This document shows positions 4,702 to 46,845 of a stretch of DNA of 64,000 nt, piece by piece. The position numbers were made by a program, and so were the translations under genes. How positions within the stretch are numbered: the first letter of the stretch is position 1; the number at the start of each line of letters is the position of its first letter. The notes below the pieces were generated by a model that worked only from the letters and a program-made list of their open reading frames with translations, was not told where the DNA came from and did not search any database. This DNA comes from Leucobacter chromiireducens subsp. chromiireducens (GTDB lineage Bacteria; Actinomycetota; Actinomycetes; Actinomycetales; Microbacteriaceae): positions 310,001-374,000 of the forward strand of contig NZ_QYAD01000004.1 of NCBI RefSeq assembly GCF_016758255.1. The letters run 5' to 3'.

Positions 4702-4968
4702 TTACTCAGCGGCCTCCGGCGCGCGCTTCGTCATCGTGAGCTTGCCCTCGACGACCTCGTGCAGCGCGATCGACAGCGGCTTGTCGTCGACCGACGAGTC
4801 GACGAGCGGCCCGACGTTGTCGAAGAGGTTGCCGTCGTGCAGATCCGTGTAGTAATCGTTGATCTGACGAGCACGCTGCGAGGCGAAGATCACCAGCGCA
4901 TACTTCGAATCCACCTTTTCGAGCAGATCGTCGATGGGCGGGTCGATGATGCCGTTGACATTTGCCAT
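4702..4968 (-). CDS. rpoZ: RNA polymerase omega subunit
   Basis: Omega helps fold and assemble the beta-prime subunit of RNA polymerase. The 88-residue product contains the RpoZ core: the [21 protein letters not shown] segment near the N-terminus, then RARQINDYY, and the [13 protein letters not shown] helix near the C-terminus. An acidic and Ala-rich tail ends the protein. The ATG at 4968 has a GGAGGAG site 8 bases upstream. In most actinobacteria gmk lies just upstream; here that place is taken by an unrelated unknown gene (5053-5700). Confidence 0.96.
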
Positions 4969-4995
4969 GTAAACACTCCTCCGGTTGACCTCACC

Positions 4996-5001
4996 ATCTT
5001 A
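4996..5001 (-). promoter_or_regulatory. Candidate -10 element of rpoZ
   Basis: On the minus strand TAAGAT lies 27 bases before the rpoZ start codon and upstream of the ribosome site. It fits the TAnnnT consensus of actinobacterial SigA promoters. No convincing -35 is seen. Confidence 0.4.
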
Positions 5002-5052
5002 GCCGAGGTTTTCGTTTCCCGCACCGCAAGGCGCGCCGCCGCGCGAGGCGAC

Positions 5053-5700
5053 TCAGCCGAGCAGCGAACGAACGAGTACGTGTCCGCGTGGCGTCGACAG
5101 CCGCGTCCACGTCAGCGAGCGGGTCACGCGCACCGGTTCCGGCATGCCGAGGAAGCCGAGCGTCTCCCCCGCGAACGCCGCGGCCGCCGGGATTCCCGGG
5201 GCGATCTCCGTGCCCCACACCGTGGCCCGAACCTTGTGCACGAGCGCCTCACCCGGGTCGTCGGGCAGCGCGTCGGCGACCCGGGCAATCCCGTCGCGGG
5301 CAACCTCGCTGAGCGAGGCGGTGTCGAGCGCACCAGCCGCCTCCCACCCCGCAACGGGTGGCAGCACCCCGGCCCACGCCGCCATGGCGGTCACGTCGGG
5401 CACCTCGAGCGCGAGGCCGATGATCCCGAGCCGCGCGATGCGATCGAGCAGCGCCCGCGCTTGCACGGTCTCGTCGATGTCCGACTCCGGCACCTCAGCA
5501 AGCGCGAAGCCACGCATCACGAGCACCACGGGCACTGTGTCCGTGATCCCGCGCGGCGCCTGCGTGCAGCCGTACACCGCAAGCACCGTGCCGCGGGTGA
5601 CGAGCCGCACCTCGTCTTGCCCCACTTTCTGCACACGCTCAAGGAAAATGCGGAGATCGTCTCGCGTCGCGTGATCCGCGAGCTGCAGTGTGGCACCCAT
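5053..5700 (-). CDS. Conserved-looking protein of unknown function, 215 aa
   Basis: I do not recognise this protein. It is soluble, with no signal peptide or membrane segment. It contains regularly spaced hydrophobic strands (TRGTVLAVYGCTQ, PVVLVMRGFALA), a helical Ala-rich middle and a C-terminal GHVLVRSLLG. Codon use matches the neighbours, so it is a real gene. An in-frame ATG at 5727 is also possible, but its AGGGAGGG abuts the start codon. The ATG at 5700 has TACACT exactly 7 bases upstream, which fits leaderless transcription. It stands between rpoZ and a divergent tesB, where gmk is often found in other actinobacteria, but has no kinase motifs. Confidence 0.7.
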   Translation of the reverse strand: MGATLQLADHATRDDLRIFLERVQKVGQDEVRLVTRGTVLAVYGCTQAPRGITDTVPVVLVMRGFALAEVPESDIDETVQARALLDRIARLGIIGLALEVPDVTAMAAWAGVLPPVAGWEAAGALDTASLSEVARDGIARVADALPDDPGEALVHKVRATVWGTEIAPGIPAAAAFAGETLGFLGMPEPVRVTRSLTWTRLSTPRGHVLVRSLLG

Positions 5701-42244: not shown

Positions 42245-43687
42245 CTACCGCGCTTCTGGAAGCAGTTCGCTCGCGTCGGTCGCGGGAACCGCTGCGGCGT
42301 CGGCGACCGGGGCGAACGTTGTCTCCCCGTGCGGACGGCCGCCTCGCTCGGGGAACCGTGCGCGCATCCCTTGCTCATCATCAAGCCAGTTCGGGCCACG
42401 GTTCTTCAGGAAGAACACGTAGACGATCAGGGAGACCGCGATCACCACGGTCACGTACCCAATGAACCAGGGCACGTGTCCGGCGTCGCCCGCAGCCTGG
42501 TACAGCATGGGAGCCGTGCCGCCGAACACCGAGTTGGCGAGCGCGTACCCGAGCCCCAGGCCCAGCGCTCGAATGTGCGTGGGGAAGAGCTGCGCCTTCA
42601 CCACCGCGTTGATCGAGGTGTAGCCGGTGAGGATGACGAACCCGCCCACGAGGATCGCGAACGCAACGAGAGGGTTCTGCTGTGCCGGGAGCGCGGTGAT
42701 GAAGAACCCGGTGTACAGCACTCCGCCCACCCCGAAGAACACGAGCAGCGTCTTGCGGCCGACGATGTCGGAGAGCCAGCCACCGAGTGGCTGGAGCAGC
42801 ATGAGGATTGTGAGTGCGATGAGATTGATCACAGTGCCCGCAAGCGCGTCTCCGCCGGAGAACGCCGACTTCACGATGCCGGGGCCCGTCACCGAGTAGG
42901 TGTAGAACGCGACCGTACCGCCCGCAGTCACCAGGAAGCAGAGCAGCAGCGGCTTCCAGTGGAAGCGGAGGAGCTCGCGCATCGAGCCCGACTCGACCGA
43001 CTGCCCTGACCGCACCGCCGCGAGCGTCGACTCCCCCAGCGACTCGTCCATGGTGCGTCGCAACCACAGCACTAGGAGCGCGCCCACGCCACCGATCGCG
43101 AAGGCCACGCGCCAGCCCCACGACGCAATCTGGTCATGCGTCATCGTGAGCATCATGATGAGCAGGGTGAACTGCGCGAGGACGTGCCCGCCCACGAGGG
43201 TCACGTAGTGGAACGAGGAGAGGAAGCCACGTCGCCCAGCGATGGCGGTCTCGGACATGTACGTCGCGCTCGTTCCGTACTCCCCGCCGGTTGCGAACCC
43301 TTGGAGGAGGCGCACGAACACGAGGATCACAACGGCCCAGGCACCGATGAGCTCAGCACTCGGGGTCAGCGCAATCACCATCGAGCAGGCGGCCATGAGC
43401 GACACCGAGATCGTCAGGGCGAGTCGTCGACCGTGCCGATCGGCGAAGCGGCCGAAGTACCACGAGCCGATCGGTCGCATCACAAACGTGACCGCGAAGA
43501 TCGCCCAGATATAGAGCGTGGAATTCTGCTCGTCCGCGGAAAAGAACTGCGACTCGAAGAAGCTCAGAAACACCGAGTAGACGTAAACGTCGTACCACTC
43601 AACCAGGTTGCCTGCCGAGCCCTTGAGCGTGTTAGAGATGGACCGTCGAATCGTGGGAGACGTCGCGGTCGTCGTTGACACTGACAT
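42245..43687 (-). CDS. MHS-family MFS permease (carboxylate or compatible-solute type)
   Basis: A 480-residue permease with 12 membrane helices. The metabolite:H+ symporter (MHS) family marks are SAGNLVEWYDVYVYSVFLSF near residue 30, YFGRFADRHGRRLAL, and LLQGFATGGEYGTSATYMSE. Relatives carry alpha-ketoglutarate, citrate, shikimate or proline/betaine. The C-terminal 40 residues are hydrophilic. A GGAAA site precedes the ATG at 43687. It is divergent from a response regulator, kinase and TAXI lipoprotein operon, with tandem repeats in between, so it is the probable output of that sensor. The substrate cannot be fixed from sequence alone; a di- or tricarboxylate is the best guess. Confidence 0.9.
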   Translation of the reverse strand: MSVSTTTATSPTIRRSISNTLKGSAGNLVEWYDVYVYSVFLSFFESQFFSADEQNSTLYIWAIFAVTFVMRPIGSWYFGRFADRHGRRLALTISVSLMAACSMVIALTPSAELIGAWAVVILVFVRLLQGFATGGEYGTSATYMSETAIAGRRGFLSSFHYVTLVGGHVLAQFTLLIMMLTMTHDQIASWGWRVAFAIGGVGALLVLWLRRTMDESLGESTLAAVRSGQSVESGSMRELLRFHWKPLLLCFLVTAGGTVAFYTYSVTGPGIVKSAFSGGDALAGTVINLIALTILMLLQPLGGWLSDIVGRKTLLVFFGVGGVLYTGFFITALPAQQNPLVAFAILVGGFVILTGYTSINAVVKAQLFPTHIRALGLGLGYALANSVFGGTAPMLYQAAGDAGHVPWFIGYVTVVIAVSLIVYVFFLKNRGPNWLDDEQGMRARFPERGGRPHGETTFAPVADAAAVPATDASELLPEAR

Positions 43688-43729
43688 GAATTTCCAATCG
43701 TCATCAATTGGGGTGAGGTGGGGTGCGAG

Positions 43730-43761
43730 AGCCGCACGCCGTCATTGTGGGCCGTGCGGCT
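43730..43761. repeat. Inverted repeat in the permease promoter region
   Basis: AGCCGCACG (43730-43738) and CGTGCGGCT (43753-43761) form a perfect 9-bp inverted repeat with a 14-base loop, 43-74 bp upstream of the permease start. It could be a leader hairpin or an operator. Confidence 0.45.
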
Positions 43762-43779
43762 ACCGCCCAGCGAGCGCGT

Positions 43780-43798
43780 CTTTACACTCCCTTTACAC
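43780..43798. promoter_or_regulatory. Tandem CTTTACAC repeats, 11-bp step
   Basis: Two identical CTTTACAC elements start at 43780 and 43791, separated by 3 bases. Tandem direct half-sites at 10-11 bp steps are the typical target of OmpR/PhoB-type response regulators. They lie between the permease and the response regulator gene, about 90 bp from each start codon. Confidence 0.6.
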
Positions 43799-43883
43799 GG
43801 CGGAGTCACGTTCCGCTTACGATCTGCGCTTCGCAGCTTGTCGTACTGAGCACGGTTTCGAGGCGACCTGCATACTTGAGCGC

Positions 43884-44537
43884 ATGCGTGTACTGGTCGC
43901 TGAAGACGATCGCTCGGTGGCTGCGGCGCTCACCGCGGCGCTGACTCGCGCCGGTCACACGTGCGTACGCGTCGCTCGAGGTGACGAGGTGCTCGCCCGG
44001 TACCGGGACGTCGATGCCGTACTCCTTGACCTTGGGCTCGAAGATATGGATGGGCTCGACGCGCTCCGCGATCTTCGACGGGTGAGCTCAGTCCCCGTGT
44101 TGGTGGTCACCGCTCGCGGCGACGAGCGTTCGACGGTGCACGCGCTCCGGCTCGGCGCGGACGACTACCTCGTGAAACCAGTTCGGGTCCACGAGCTCTT
44201 GGCCCGGCTCCTGGCTGTCACCCGTCGCTACGCGCAGCCGACCCCGGAGTTCATCTCGGTGGGCGACGCGACGCTCGATGCAGCAACTCATGAGGTGCGC
44301 CACGACGACGCGACGGTGACGCTCACGCCGACCGAGGCCGGGATCTTACGTGCGCTCGCCCGCCGCCCGGGCACCCCCGTCGCACGACGCGAACTCCTTG
44401 CAGAAGTGTGGGGTGATGACCACGCCGTCGGCTCGCGCGCGCTCGACGTGCACCTCGCTCAGCTTCGACGAAAACTGCCCATGGTGACGATCACCACGAT
44501 TCGCGGCGTGGGGTTTCGACTTGAGGAGCGCCGGTGA
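43884..44537 (+). CDS. OmpR/PhoB-type response regulator (TctD-like)
   Basis: The receiver domain (residues 1-115) has the acidic pair in LVAEDDRS, the phosphate-accepting Asp49 in LLDLGLEDMDG, Thr in VVTARGD and Lys in YLVKPVR. The C-terminal winged helix (about 125-215) has LTPTEAGILRALARRPG, VGSRALDVHLAQLRRKL and TIRGVGFRL. The ATG at 43884 is followed directly by the conserved start RVLVAEDD; CATACT lies 7 bases upstream. Its stop overlaps the kinase start (GTGA), so the pair is coupled. It probably binds the tandem repeats just upstream and controls the divergent permease. Confidence 0.94.
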   Translation: MRVLVAEDDRSVAAALTAALTRAGHTCVRVARGDEVLARYRDVDAVLLDLGLEDMDGLDALRDLRRVSSVPVLVVTARGDERSTVHALRLGADDYLVKPVRVHELLARLLAVTRRYAQPTPEFISVGDATLDAATHEVRHDDATVTLTPTEAGILRALARRPGTPVARRELLAEVWGDDHAVGSRALDVHLAQLRRKLPMVTITTIRGVGFRLEERR

Positions 44538-45907
44538 GGCTACGTGTTCTCCTCCCCATGCTCCTCCTCGGGCTCGTTGCGGTGATCGCCGTACTGATCC
44601 CGACCGCGGCGTCGATCGCGGAATCTCGCACGCAGCAGCTCCAACTGCAGCGTGCGGGAGCGCTCGGTCAACTCGTGCAACGGGCCTACGCGGCACTCGA
44701 GCGCGGTGATGACACCGGGCTCGAACGCTATCTCGCGCGATTCGCTGAGACCTACGGTGAGTCGGTGCTGGTGGTGGATGGGCGCGGCGAGACCGTCGCC
44801 GCCGTCGGCGATATTTCTGTCGAGGGCCCAGCGAGTGCCGCCGTCACCGCGGCGCTGCGCGGCGTGCCGCAGTGGCAGCTCCCCACGGTGATGCCGTGGA
44901 GCGACGAGACGCACTTCGTTGCGGAACCGATCACCACCGACGGCACGGCACCCGCGGGCGCCGTCGCGCTCCGCGTCGATCAGTCCGTGGCGCGCGCGGA
45001 CGTGGTGTCGGGATGGATCGTCGCGGGCGGCGTCGGAGCCGCCCTGCTCGCACTCCTGTTGCTGGTCGCCGCGCTCTGGACGAATTGGGTGCTCCGTCCG
45101 GTGCATGCCCTTGATGCAGCAACGCGCGCCGTGGCGGGACACCGCGGCTTCAGCCTGAGCACCGTTACTGGTCCCCCGGAGCTGCGCAGCCTCGCGGTCT
45201 CGTTCACACGCATGGCCGAACGTGTCGAGACCACGCTTGAGCAGCAGCGCGGCCTCGTGGCTGACGCCTCGCACCAGCTGCGTAACCCGCTCGCCGCGAT
45301 CCGCCTGCGGGTCGATGCGCTTCCCCGTGCAGACTCAACGGATGATCTGGACGCGATCGATGCGGATCTCGACCGGCTCGATCACACCCTGGAGCGCATG
45401 CTCACGCTCGCAGACGCTGAGCACCGAGCGAACGCGCTGACCGAGGACACGGGAACAGACGCTGCTCTCCCCGCACTCACACTGTCGGCTGCCGAGCTGT
45501 GTGAGCCGCACGCGCCCCAAGTGGCCGCGGCCGGACTGCTGCTGAACGCGGATGACCGGCTCGCGACGGTGCGGTGCCGGCGGCACGATCTCGAGGAGAT
45601 CGTCGGCATTCTCGCGGACAACGCGAGCAGGTACCTCCGCCCGGGTACTCGAGTGGCCGTCGGCTTTGCGCCGCACCAGGGCCGCGAGGTGCTGACCTTC
45701 GCGGACTCGGGCCCCGGCCTCAGCGATGCAGATCTGCGCCAGCTGGGCACGCGGTTCTGGCGCGGACCAGATCGAGACCAACGCCCCGGGAGCGGGCTTG
45801 GGTACCCCATCATCTGGCAGCTCGCTGGCGCAAACCGGGGCATCGTGACCGTCGACCGCGCACCATCGGGCGGCTTGCGCACTCGGATATCGTTGGAGTC
45901 CGCATGA
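44534..45907 (+). CDS. Sensor histidine kinase (TctE/QseC-like)
   Basis: A 457-residue membrane kinase. Helix 1 (residues 4-28) and helix 2 (160-181) flank an extracytoplasmic sensor domain of about 130 residues (SVLVVDGRGETVAAVGD, as in TctE_N-type sensors). HAMP (182-235) is followed by the H box VADASHQLRNPLAAIRL with His247, the N box ILADNASRY, and G boxes DSGPGLSD and GSGLGYPI. It starts with GTG overlapping the response regulator stop and its own stop overlaps the TAXI gene start (ATGA). Such three-gene coupling suggests the TAXI protein feeds the kinase. Confidence 0.94.
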   Translation: MRLRVLLPMLLLGLVAVIAVLIPTAASIAESRTQQLQLQRAGALGQLVQRAYAALERGDDTGLERYLARFAETYGESVLVVDGRGETVAAVGDISVEGPASAAVTAALRGVPQWQLPTVMPWSDETHFVAEPITTDGTAPAGAVALRVDQSVARADVVSGWIVAGGVGAALLALLLLVAALWTNWVLRPVHALDAATRAVAGHRGFSLSTVTGPPELRSLAVSFTRMAERVETTLEQQRGLVADASHQLRNPLAAIRLRVDALPRADSTDDLDAIDADLDRLDHTLERMLTLADAEHRANALTEDTGTDAALPALTLSAAELCEPHAPQVAAAGLLLNADDRLATVRCRRHDLEEIVGILADNASRYLRPGTRVAVGFAPHQGREVLTFADSGPGLSDADLRQLGTRFWRGPDRDQRPGSGLGYPIIWQLAGANRGIVTVDRAPSGGLRTRISLESA

Positions 45908-46845
45908 GCACGATCAGTCGAAGAACCGCGCTCATCAGCGCAGCGGGAGTGGCGAGCGGGCTCGCCCTCTCTCTGGCAGGCTGCACGGAGCGCCAGAGTG
46001 GGCCAGCGCTCGTCCTCGCAGCGGGCGAACCGGGCGGGGTGTACCTCAGCTTCGGGCGGCTGCTGAGCGCTGCGTTCGCGCGGGAAGGCCAGCGTGCTCT
46101 GCGGCTGCGAGAAACGCACGGCAGCGAGGAGAACACAACGCTCCTCGCTACGAACGAAGCGGATCTCGCGCTCGCACTCGCCGACTCCGCCGAGGTGCCC
46201 GGTCACGAGCTCGTCGCGCTCGGCCGCGTCTACCAGAACTATCTGCAGTGCGTCGTTCGAGCAGACTCGGCAATCACCAGGCTTGACGATCTGCGCGGCG
46301 CGCGCGTCTCCATCGGTGCCCGCGGCTCAGGCTGCGCCATCACGACCCGGCGACTCCTGGAGACACGGGGAATCGGCCAGAACGTCGCGGGGACGGAGCT
46401 GCGTGAGTTCCCAATCAGCGATGCGATCGACGAGCTTGCCGCGGGCCGGATCTCCGCCCTCTTCTGGTCGGGCGGCCTGCCGACCCCGCTCCTCACCGAG
46501 CTCGACGCGCGCATTCCGCTCACACTGCTCGATCTCGCGCACGCGCTGCCTGATCTTGCCGCGCGCTACCCCGAACGCTACCTCGCAACGCGCGTTCCGG
46601 CCGGGGTGTACCGAGGAAGCTTGCCCACGCCCACCATCGGAATCCCGAACTACCTCCTGGCGCAGCCGAGCCTTCCGGACGCAGCCGCTGCCTCACTGGT
46701 GGGTGTGCTCATCGATCACGCCCCTGAGCTCGTTCCGAGCGGCACCGTTGGCGTGCAGTTTCTCACGCCAGCAAGCCTCATCGACACCGGAGAGATGCGA
46801 CTTCACCCCGCCGCGGCAGCGGAATACCGGCGCCGCTACGGGTGA
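45904..46845 (+). CDS. TAXI-family solute-binding lipoprotein without transporter partners
   Basis: A 313-residue TAXI (TRAP-associated extracytoplasmic immunogenic) type receptor. The N-terminus is SRRTALISAAGVASGLALSLAGC with a twin-Arg pair and lipobox Cys27, so it is a membrane-anchored lipoprotein, maybe exported by Tat. The mature part has the TAXI starts LVLAAGEPGGVYLSFG, RETHGSEENTTLLATNEADLALALAD and LRGARVSIGARGSGCAITTRRLLE. No DctQ/DctM-like membrane genes follow. Coupled by a 4-bp overlap to the histidine kinase. The likely role is to catch a carboxylate (glutamate, ketoglutarate or similar) and present it to the kinase. That role is inferred. Confidence 0.9.
   Translation: MSTISRRTALISAAGVASGLALSLAGCTERQSGPALVLAAGEPGGVYLSFGRLLSAAFAREGQRALRLRETHGSEENTTLLATNEADLALALADSAEVPGHELVALGRVYQNYLQCVVRADSAITRLDDLRGARVSIGARGSGCAITTRRLLETRGIGQNVAGTELREFPISDAIDELAAGRISALFWSGGLPTPLLTELDARIPLTLLDLAHALPDLAARYPERYLATRVPAGVYRGSLPTPTIGIPNYLLAQPSLPDAAAASLVGVLIDHAPELVPSGTVGVQFLTPASLIDTGEMRLHPAAAAEYRRRYG

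Follow-up and report, generated by a model that had tools for sequence, protein, structure and literature searches.

We found that the tandem repeat in the gap between two divergent genes of this locus is likely to be the dedicated operator of the adjacent response regulator, which would activate the divergent MHS transporter gene in response to a kinase that probably works with a TAXI-family lipoprotein as its sensor. The sequence basis of this reading consists of the conservation of the repeat, its step, its near-uniqueness, the promoter spacing, the gene order and the finding of no fused TRAP permease above cut-off. From these features, we infer the binding, activation rather than repression, the ligand, the contact between the TAXI protein and the kinase and both transcription start sites.

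Tandem repeat and genes of the locus

The window, that is, the whole 64-kb stretch of DNA that was analysed, contains the following features of the locus.

42245..43687, minus strand: MHS-family (KgtP-like) metabolite:H+ symporter (TIGR00883, PRK10406), the predicted target
43744..43749, minus strand: CACAAT, the predicted -10 hexamer for the MHS transporter gene, from an xAxxxT alignment over loci
43780..43798, plus strand: predicted operator, a tandem of two CTTTACAC half-sites with starts 11 bp apart, from conservation, promoter spacing and a genome scan
43871..43876, plus strand: CATACT, the predicted -10 hexamer for the regulator operon, 7 nt upstream of the ATG
43884..44537, plus strand: OmpR/PhoB-class response regulator (PF00072, PF00486), the predicted binder of the tandem
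44534..45907, plus strand: sensor histidine kinase with HAMP, HisKA and HATPase_c domains and an extracytoplasmic PAS/PDC-like domain
45904..46845, plus strand: TAXI-family solute-binding lipoprotein (TIGR02122), the predicted sensing partner of the kinase

The tandem reads CTTTACAC-TCC-CTTTACAC and is located in the 196-bp gap between the start codon of the MHS gene (43687, minus strand) and that of the regulator gene (43884, plus strand). The two 8-bp elements, described in the original prediction as identical and starting 11 bp apart in this gap, are indeed exact copies (43780-43787 and 43791-43798) with that step. Read toward the regulator operon and away from the transporter, each copy is CTTTACAC; seen toward the transporter, the tandem is GTGTAAAG-GGA-GTGTAAAG. 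Single-copy matches to CTTTACAC in the window number two, both in the tandem (shuffle mean 0.26; 2 of 100 shuffles reached two), and the spaced pair with up to three mismatches matched once (5 of 100 shuffles reached one match). Within the window alone, the tandem is only mildly unlikely by chance.

The regulator contains a receiver domain and a winged-helix Trans_reg_C domain, the architecture of the OmpR/PhoB class, with PF00072 and PF00486 scores of 81.2 and 70.3 bits, both above cut-off. The symporter scored 326.7 bits with TIGR00883 and 350.1 bits with PRK10406, below the respective cut-offs of 443.45 and 550. The TAXI protein showed a TIGR02122 score of 150.5 bits against a cut-off of 84.35 and carries a lipobox-like LAGC with Cys27. 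The gene junctions of the regulator-kinase-TAXI operon overlap (GTGA and ATGA).

Conservation of the pair among relatives

Using the window letters alone as the query, we found an 11-bp-step pair scoring at least 12 of 16 in 40 of 43 non-redundant relatives; among the 39 whose neighbour is an MHS gene it was present in 38, and among the 4 others in 2. The three relatives below the threshold at step 11 (L017, L019 and L072) each had a score of 11. Across the range of 8-21, the best other step was 12, with 6/43 relatives, and the remaining steps gave 0-4/43. At most 1/43 relatives showed a step-11 pair in 200 dinucleotide shuffles, and a chance origin of the tandem was ruled out by this conservation. 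The conservation and spacing counts draw on the window, on loci L034-L072 of genome_contigs and on a few loci from the genomes; genome loci that copied the same genomes or had identical sequences were omitted, as were L046 and L073, which have no regulator.

Both expectations of the original prediction were borne out by these data: the pair is kept in relatives with the same gene arrangement, and its 11-bp step matches the tandem sites of the PhoB/OmpR class. As in tandem operators of that class, conserved direct repeats with a step of about 11 bp lie upstream of a promoter, which in this case is itself predicted.

The relatives comprise Leucobacter, Microbacterium, Pseudoclavibacter, Gulosibacter, Agrococcus and Granulicoccus, and the closest named ones are Leucobacter. 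In 14 sampled relatives, identity to the window was 68-89% over the pair, 27-43% over the 30 bases to its right and 8-54% over the 24 bases on its transporter side. The consensus of the pair is CYTWACRY-N3-CYTWACRY, with the half-site variant CTTWACAC in many Leucobacter loci and CCTTACAT in many Microbacterium loci. Locus L035 (the same place as L006) contains three consecutive half-sites, CTTAACAC, CTTTACAC and CGTTACAC, at 11-bp steps upstream of the regulator, at -100, -89 and -78 relative to its start.

Exchange of the neighbouring transporter

The regulator, kinase and TAXI genes were kept together across loci in which the neighbouring transporter varied. The neighbour was an MHS protein in most loci examined, a fused TRAP permease in L055, L069 and L139, and an Nramp-like transporter in L087, L088, L124, L125 and L127. 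For the Nramp-like neighbours, either the ligand differs or these particular proteins carry no metals. The transporter was not divergent in L125, L127 and L130, and the operon was present with no recognisable pair in L125 and L127.

TAXI protein and proposed ligand sensing by the kinase

A fused TRAP permease above cut-off was found in none of the 12 MHS-type Leucobacter genomes, own genome included. TIGR02123 had no match in nine of them (own genome and eight others) and reached 37-64 bits, against a cut-off of 320.65, in the remaining three (G005, G016 and G033), which have strong DctM matches and were scanned separately from the nine; the TRAP-type genomes G007 and G019 scored 409.5 and 417.5. 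The DctM matches of G005, G016 and G033 were about 1e-41 or better and fell below the fused-permease cut-off. A weak DctM-like carrier in the own genome (45.7 bits; Pfam cut-off 23.8), which also matches an antiporter family, was rejected as a TRAP permease. Some partner for the TAXI protein may nevertheless exist in the own genome, G005, G016 and G033. The TAXI protein of the window is therefore probably not the supplier of a transporter of the known TAXI kind; the gene order, the phylogeny and the lack of a fused permease suggest that it most likely reports a ligand to the kinase.

A pair of TAXI genes was found in each of the TRAP-type loci L155 and L156 (the places of L055 and L069), L139 and L157, with one gene next to the permease and the second next to the kinase; this second gene faces the kinase gene in L139 and L157. 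That of L157 (G003, 4751-5645) matches in two pieces. In a tree of 51 selected rows, 22 of them MHS-type with the window included, 34 of the kinase-linked TAXI proteins, whose neighbouring transporters are of the MHS, Nramp-like and TRAP types, formed a 100/100 group, and three permease-linked TAXI proteins, rows of unlike letter make-up, were placed on a separate 100/100 branch. The permease-linked row of L157, which has a long branch, and 13 near-duplicate or redundant rows were left out of this tree; in another tree, the L157 row grouped with the other permease-linked rows with a support of 90. The TAXI proteins linked to GluR-type kinases and that of L139 fell in another group outside the 34, which places kinase linkage on more than one branch.

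It is possible, if somewhat doubtful, that the kinase senses the ligand directly via its PAS/PDC domain, with the TAXI protein being a remnant or working for another transporter. The model of this extracytoplasmic domain (about residues 29-158; pLDDT 86) resembles the sensor domains of WalK, CitA and DcuS, with VIA Z-scores of 13.2, 10.9 and 10.9 and rmsd values of 3.1, 3.1 and 3.4 for 126, 114 and 119 aligned, respectively. Foldseek with the sensor domain alone returned PAS/PDC-like matches, 4u64 being the best (E 8.6e-4), and the whole-kinase fold searches were dominated by matches to the cytoplasmic part; the sensor-domain matches from Foldseek and VIA gave no clear ligand inference. Direct sensing has a precedent in GluK, which itself binds glutamate according to statements in a review (PMC9739842), and it would agree with the DctM-like carriers of some genomes and with the apparently broken TAXI gene of G016, which matches in three pieces in differing frames (L091, 8775-9705). 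G016 retains the kinase, the regulator and a one-mismatch site despite this apparent break. However, the TAXI gene remains beside the kinase across MHS, Nramp-like and TRAP loci, and G002, G008 and G009 keep it without any DctM match at all, which speaks against this reading. Among the matches listed, which are drawn from the open-licence literature, no description of a TAXI protein as a two-component sensor was found. One paper presents TAXI proteins as neglected and still awaiting characterisation (PMC5812351).

Predicted promoters on the two sides of the tandem

On the transporter side, 38 of 39 MHS loci (window included) have an xAxxxT hexamer of the -10 type that begins 28-31 bp from the pair. 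This criterion fixes only two letters (three for the TAxxxT described below) in DNA of high GC content, and the loci are related, not independent. The sole MHS locus without it is L063; L040, where the predicted MHS start overlaps, was omitted. The best single column held the hexamer in 18 loci, and no column in 1000 shuffles gave more than 7; non-touching five-column windows had xAxxxT in 1-6 of the 39 loci. In the window, the predicted CACAAT begins 31 bp from the tandem and would place the transcription start near 43737, and the tandem would span about -43 to -61 relative to this start. Scanning 43600-43960 for a sigma70 consensus gave neither a promoter nor a terminator, and the promoter calls are therefore based on the alignment.

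A TAxxxT hexamer was present on the transporter side in 10 of 11 TRAP, Nramp-like or remote-MHS loci, beginning 38-40 bp from the site, roughly a helical turn beyond the 28-31 bp of the MHS loci. Several of these 11 loci are close relatives, and their pairs are less exact. Any three-column window had it in at most 3 of the 11 loci in 1000 shuffles. The exception, L130, has neither the tandem nor this spacing, and L125 and L127, with no pair and a transporter that is not divergent, were omitted from the count. In ten Nramp/MHS loci, step 10 scored slightly above step 11 (12.6 vs 12.0). We read these results as an activator site that would be held in position relative to the transporter promoter, whichever transporter is present.

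On the regulator side, a hexamer such as the predicted CATACT was found 5-7 nt before the regulator start codon in 43 of 44 loci, compared with 15% at control positions. The transcript of the regulator operon looks leaderless; leaderless transcripts are described as common in Actinobacteria in the part of the literature consulted (PMC3160421). The proposal that the tandem could control both transcripts is supported unevenly: the distance to the transporter hexamer is near-constant, as described above, whereas that from the pair to the regulator start was 35-134 bp across the 44 loci. Direct control of the transporter appears to be the better reading, and the regulator may also control its own gene, the likeliest cases being loci with a gap of about 35 bp.

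That the site mainly autoregulates the regulator operon, with the transporter promoter being incidental, would account for the repeats reading CTTTACAC toward this operon and for L015, L054 and L061, where 35 bp separate the end of the site from the regulator start, as would be reasonable for an activator; we consider this improbable, as the distance to the regulator start varies widely compared with the near-constant distance to the transporter hexamer. Repression of the transporter from the tandem until the regulator is phosphorylated or released is likewise an improbable reading. Sequence alone cannot separate activation from repression, but the pair lies upstream of the would-be -35 and does not overlap the -10, and the lack of a sigma70-like promoter in the consensus scan suits an activator-dependent promoter. 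These points favour activation of the MHS gene by the adjacent regulator; the orientation of the tandem, which points away from the transporter, weighs on the other side.

Specificity of the site and of the regulator

The own genome (3.22 Mb) contains one exact match each for the window pair and the consensus, both at the tandem; with one mismatch allowed, there were 2 consensus matches against 4 for the backward control. In 54 whole genus genomes, the exact consensus matched 12 times, 11 of them at the MHS/TRAP-type locus, and the consensus read backwards as a control matched 5 times. In the 14 genomes in which an MHS- or TRAP-type locus was found, the consensus was exact in 11 and had one mismatch in 3. 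It was not matched in the Nramp-type genomes G039 and G048, and genomes without the locus had no match save one unrelated place (L160 in G038). This match, which directly precedes a LysR-like frame as read from the translation with no family search, was taken as chance: locus genes are absent there, and a single match is below the backward-control count of 5. Within the searched consensus, the tandem is a predicted dedicated, single-target operator.

Direct repeats near an 11-bp step are bound by MtrA. For mycobacterial PhoP, 7-bp repeats with a 4-bp spacer are reported (PMC4832192). That the repeats belong to another, global regulator such as MtrA, GlnR or PhoP, since global actinobacterial regulators also bind direct repeats near this step, is very improbable and was rejected on the near-uniqueness of the consensus, as the site of such a regulator should recur and the counts above place it almost solely at this locus.

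The recognition-helix region in carriers of a clear pair is SR[AST]xDVH[LM], and the 14 GluR-like paralogues examined have the recognition helix RSLEVH and no pair. L125 and L130, which have DVHL and no pair, are exceptions, and the motif and the recognition helix appear broadly to go together. The original prediction named the tandem as the best candidate for the target of the regulator at 43884-44537; the class of this regulator, the conservation of the pair and the broad helix-motif match speak for this predicted assignment.

Paralogous regulator-kinase-TAXI loci were found in all 14 of the chosen genus stretches. The second, GluR-like regulator-kinase-TAXI operon of the own genome (G000 contig C3:44000-57000, L141) has amino-acid ABC permease genes and amino-acid permease genes in its neighbourhood, and amino-acid ABC transporter genes are close by in both paralogous loci examined for them (L141 and L142). 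The 14 GluR-like paralogue loci (L141-L154) showed no step-11 excess, with a mean of 10.79 and values of 10.43-11.0 over steps 8-15. No step-11 excess was seen in L131-L134, and L135-L138 were without the pair. Locus L140 (G126), with a more remote regulator, contains an exact 8-bp repeat of other letters at an 11-bp step, CTGAGCAC-CCG-CTGAGCAC, located 137 bp upstream of the start of the regulator. The neighbourhood of L140 includes a sodium:dicarboxylate symporter (PF00375) as well as a GABA-permease-like gene.

Comparison with known systems

The locus resembles GluR-GluK of Streptomyces coelicolor, which is also actinobacterial and combines an OmpR-class regulator and a transmembrane kinase with an adjacent divergent carboxylate or amino-acid transporter. 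According to two papers, GluR-GluK controls a glutamate transporter in Streptomyces (PMC9739842, PMC10345050). The two systems differ in that the GluR-GluK target is the gluABCD ABC transporter, whereas the predicted target in the window is an MHS symporter, and no adjacent gluABCD-type ABC transporter is present there. The tandem of the window was also absent from the 14 GluR-like paralogue loci examined.

A second likeness is to BctDE/BctC of Bordetella pertussis, a member of the TctD/TctE/TctC group, in which a solute-binding protein acts as the ligand sensor of the kinase and a carboxylate transporter is switched on. Citrate-loaded BctC activates BctE, as described in portions of PMC5812351 and PMC9602780, and GltB activates GtrS, as described in a portion of PMC7927077. 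In contrast to the window protein, which is of the TAXI family, BctC belongs to the TctC family and also serves its own transporter; the regulator of the window scored 122.6 bits with TctD against a cut-off of 337.

The PmrA box (PmrA/BasR) likewise has head-to-tail half-sites at an 11-bp step, and its binding by a phosphorylated OmpR/PhoB-class dimer is described in PMC3973317 and PMC4660055. The half-sites of the window are CTTTAC-N5-CTTTAC, while the PmrA box has CTTAAG and NTTAAT five bp apart, and the targets differ; the PmrA score of the regulator was 150.9 bits against a cut-off of 330. The remote locus L128 has a PmrA-box-like CCTAAC-N5-CTTAAG, and L126 is near the letters of L128. Finally, TAXI-TRAP transporters have a binding protein of the same TAXI family (TIGR02122) as the window. 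These systems usually have a fused DctQM permease, as stated in part of PMC5812351, whereas none was found in the genome of the window (TIGR02123).

Proposed mechanism and significance

In the mechanism that we propose, the TAXI lipoprotein would capture a carboxylate-like ligand outside the membrane, and the kinase, probably together with this lipoprotein through a putative contact, would phosphorylate the regulator. A regulator dimer would then bind both half-sites head to tail and would recruit RNA polymerase to the divergent MHS promoter, and the regulator-kinase-TAXI operon would be transcribed from its own leaderless promoter at the predicted start site. Kinases assisted by a binding protein are already known (BctC-BctE and GltB-GtrS).

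We also lean, with reservation, towards a wider reading in which the regulator-kinase-TAXI operon and the tandem form a portable cassette; the transporter (MHS, Nramp-like or TRAP) would be exchanged while the operator/promoter geometry is kept, with a spacing change of about one helical turn, and a subfamily of TAXI proteins would serve as the dedicated extracellular sensor of actinobacterial two-component systems.

The locus ties an orphan regulator to a predicted target gene and offers a handle on the ligand, as candidate compounds can be used for induction and a single promoter read. With one short, nearly unique operator and a swappable transporter, the putative sensor role of the TAXI protein would be directly testable.
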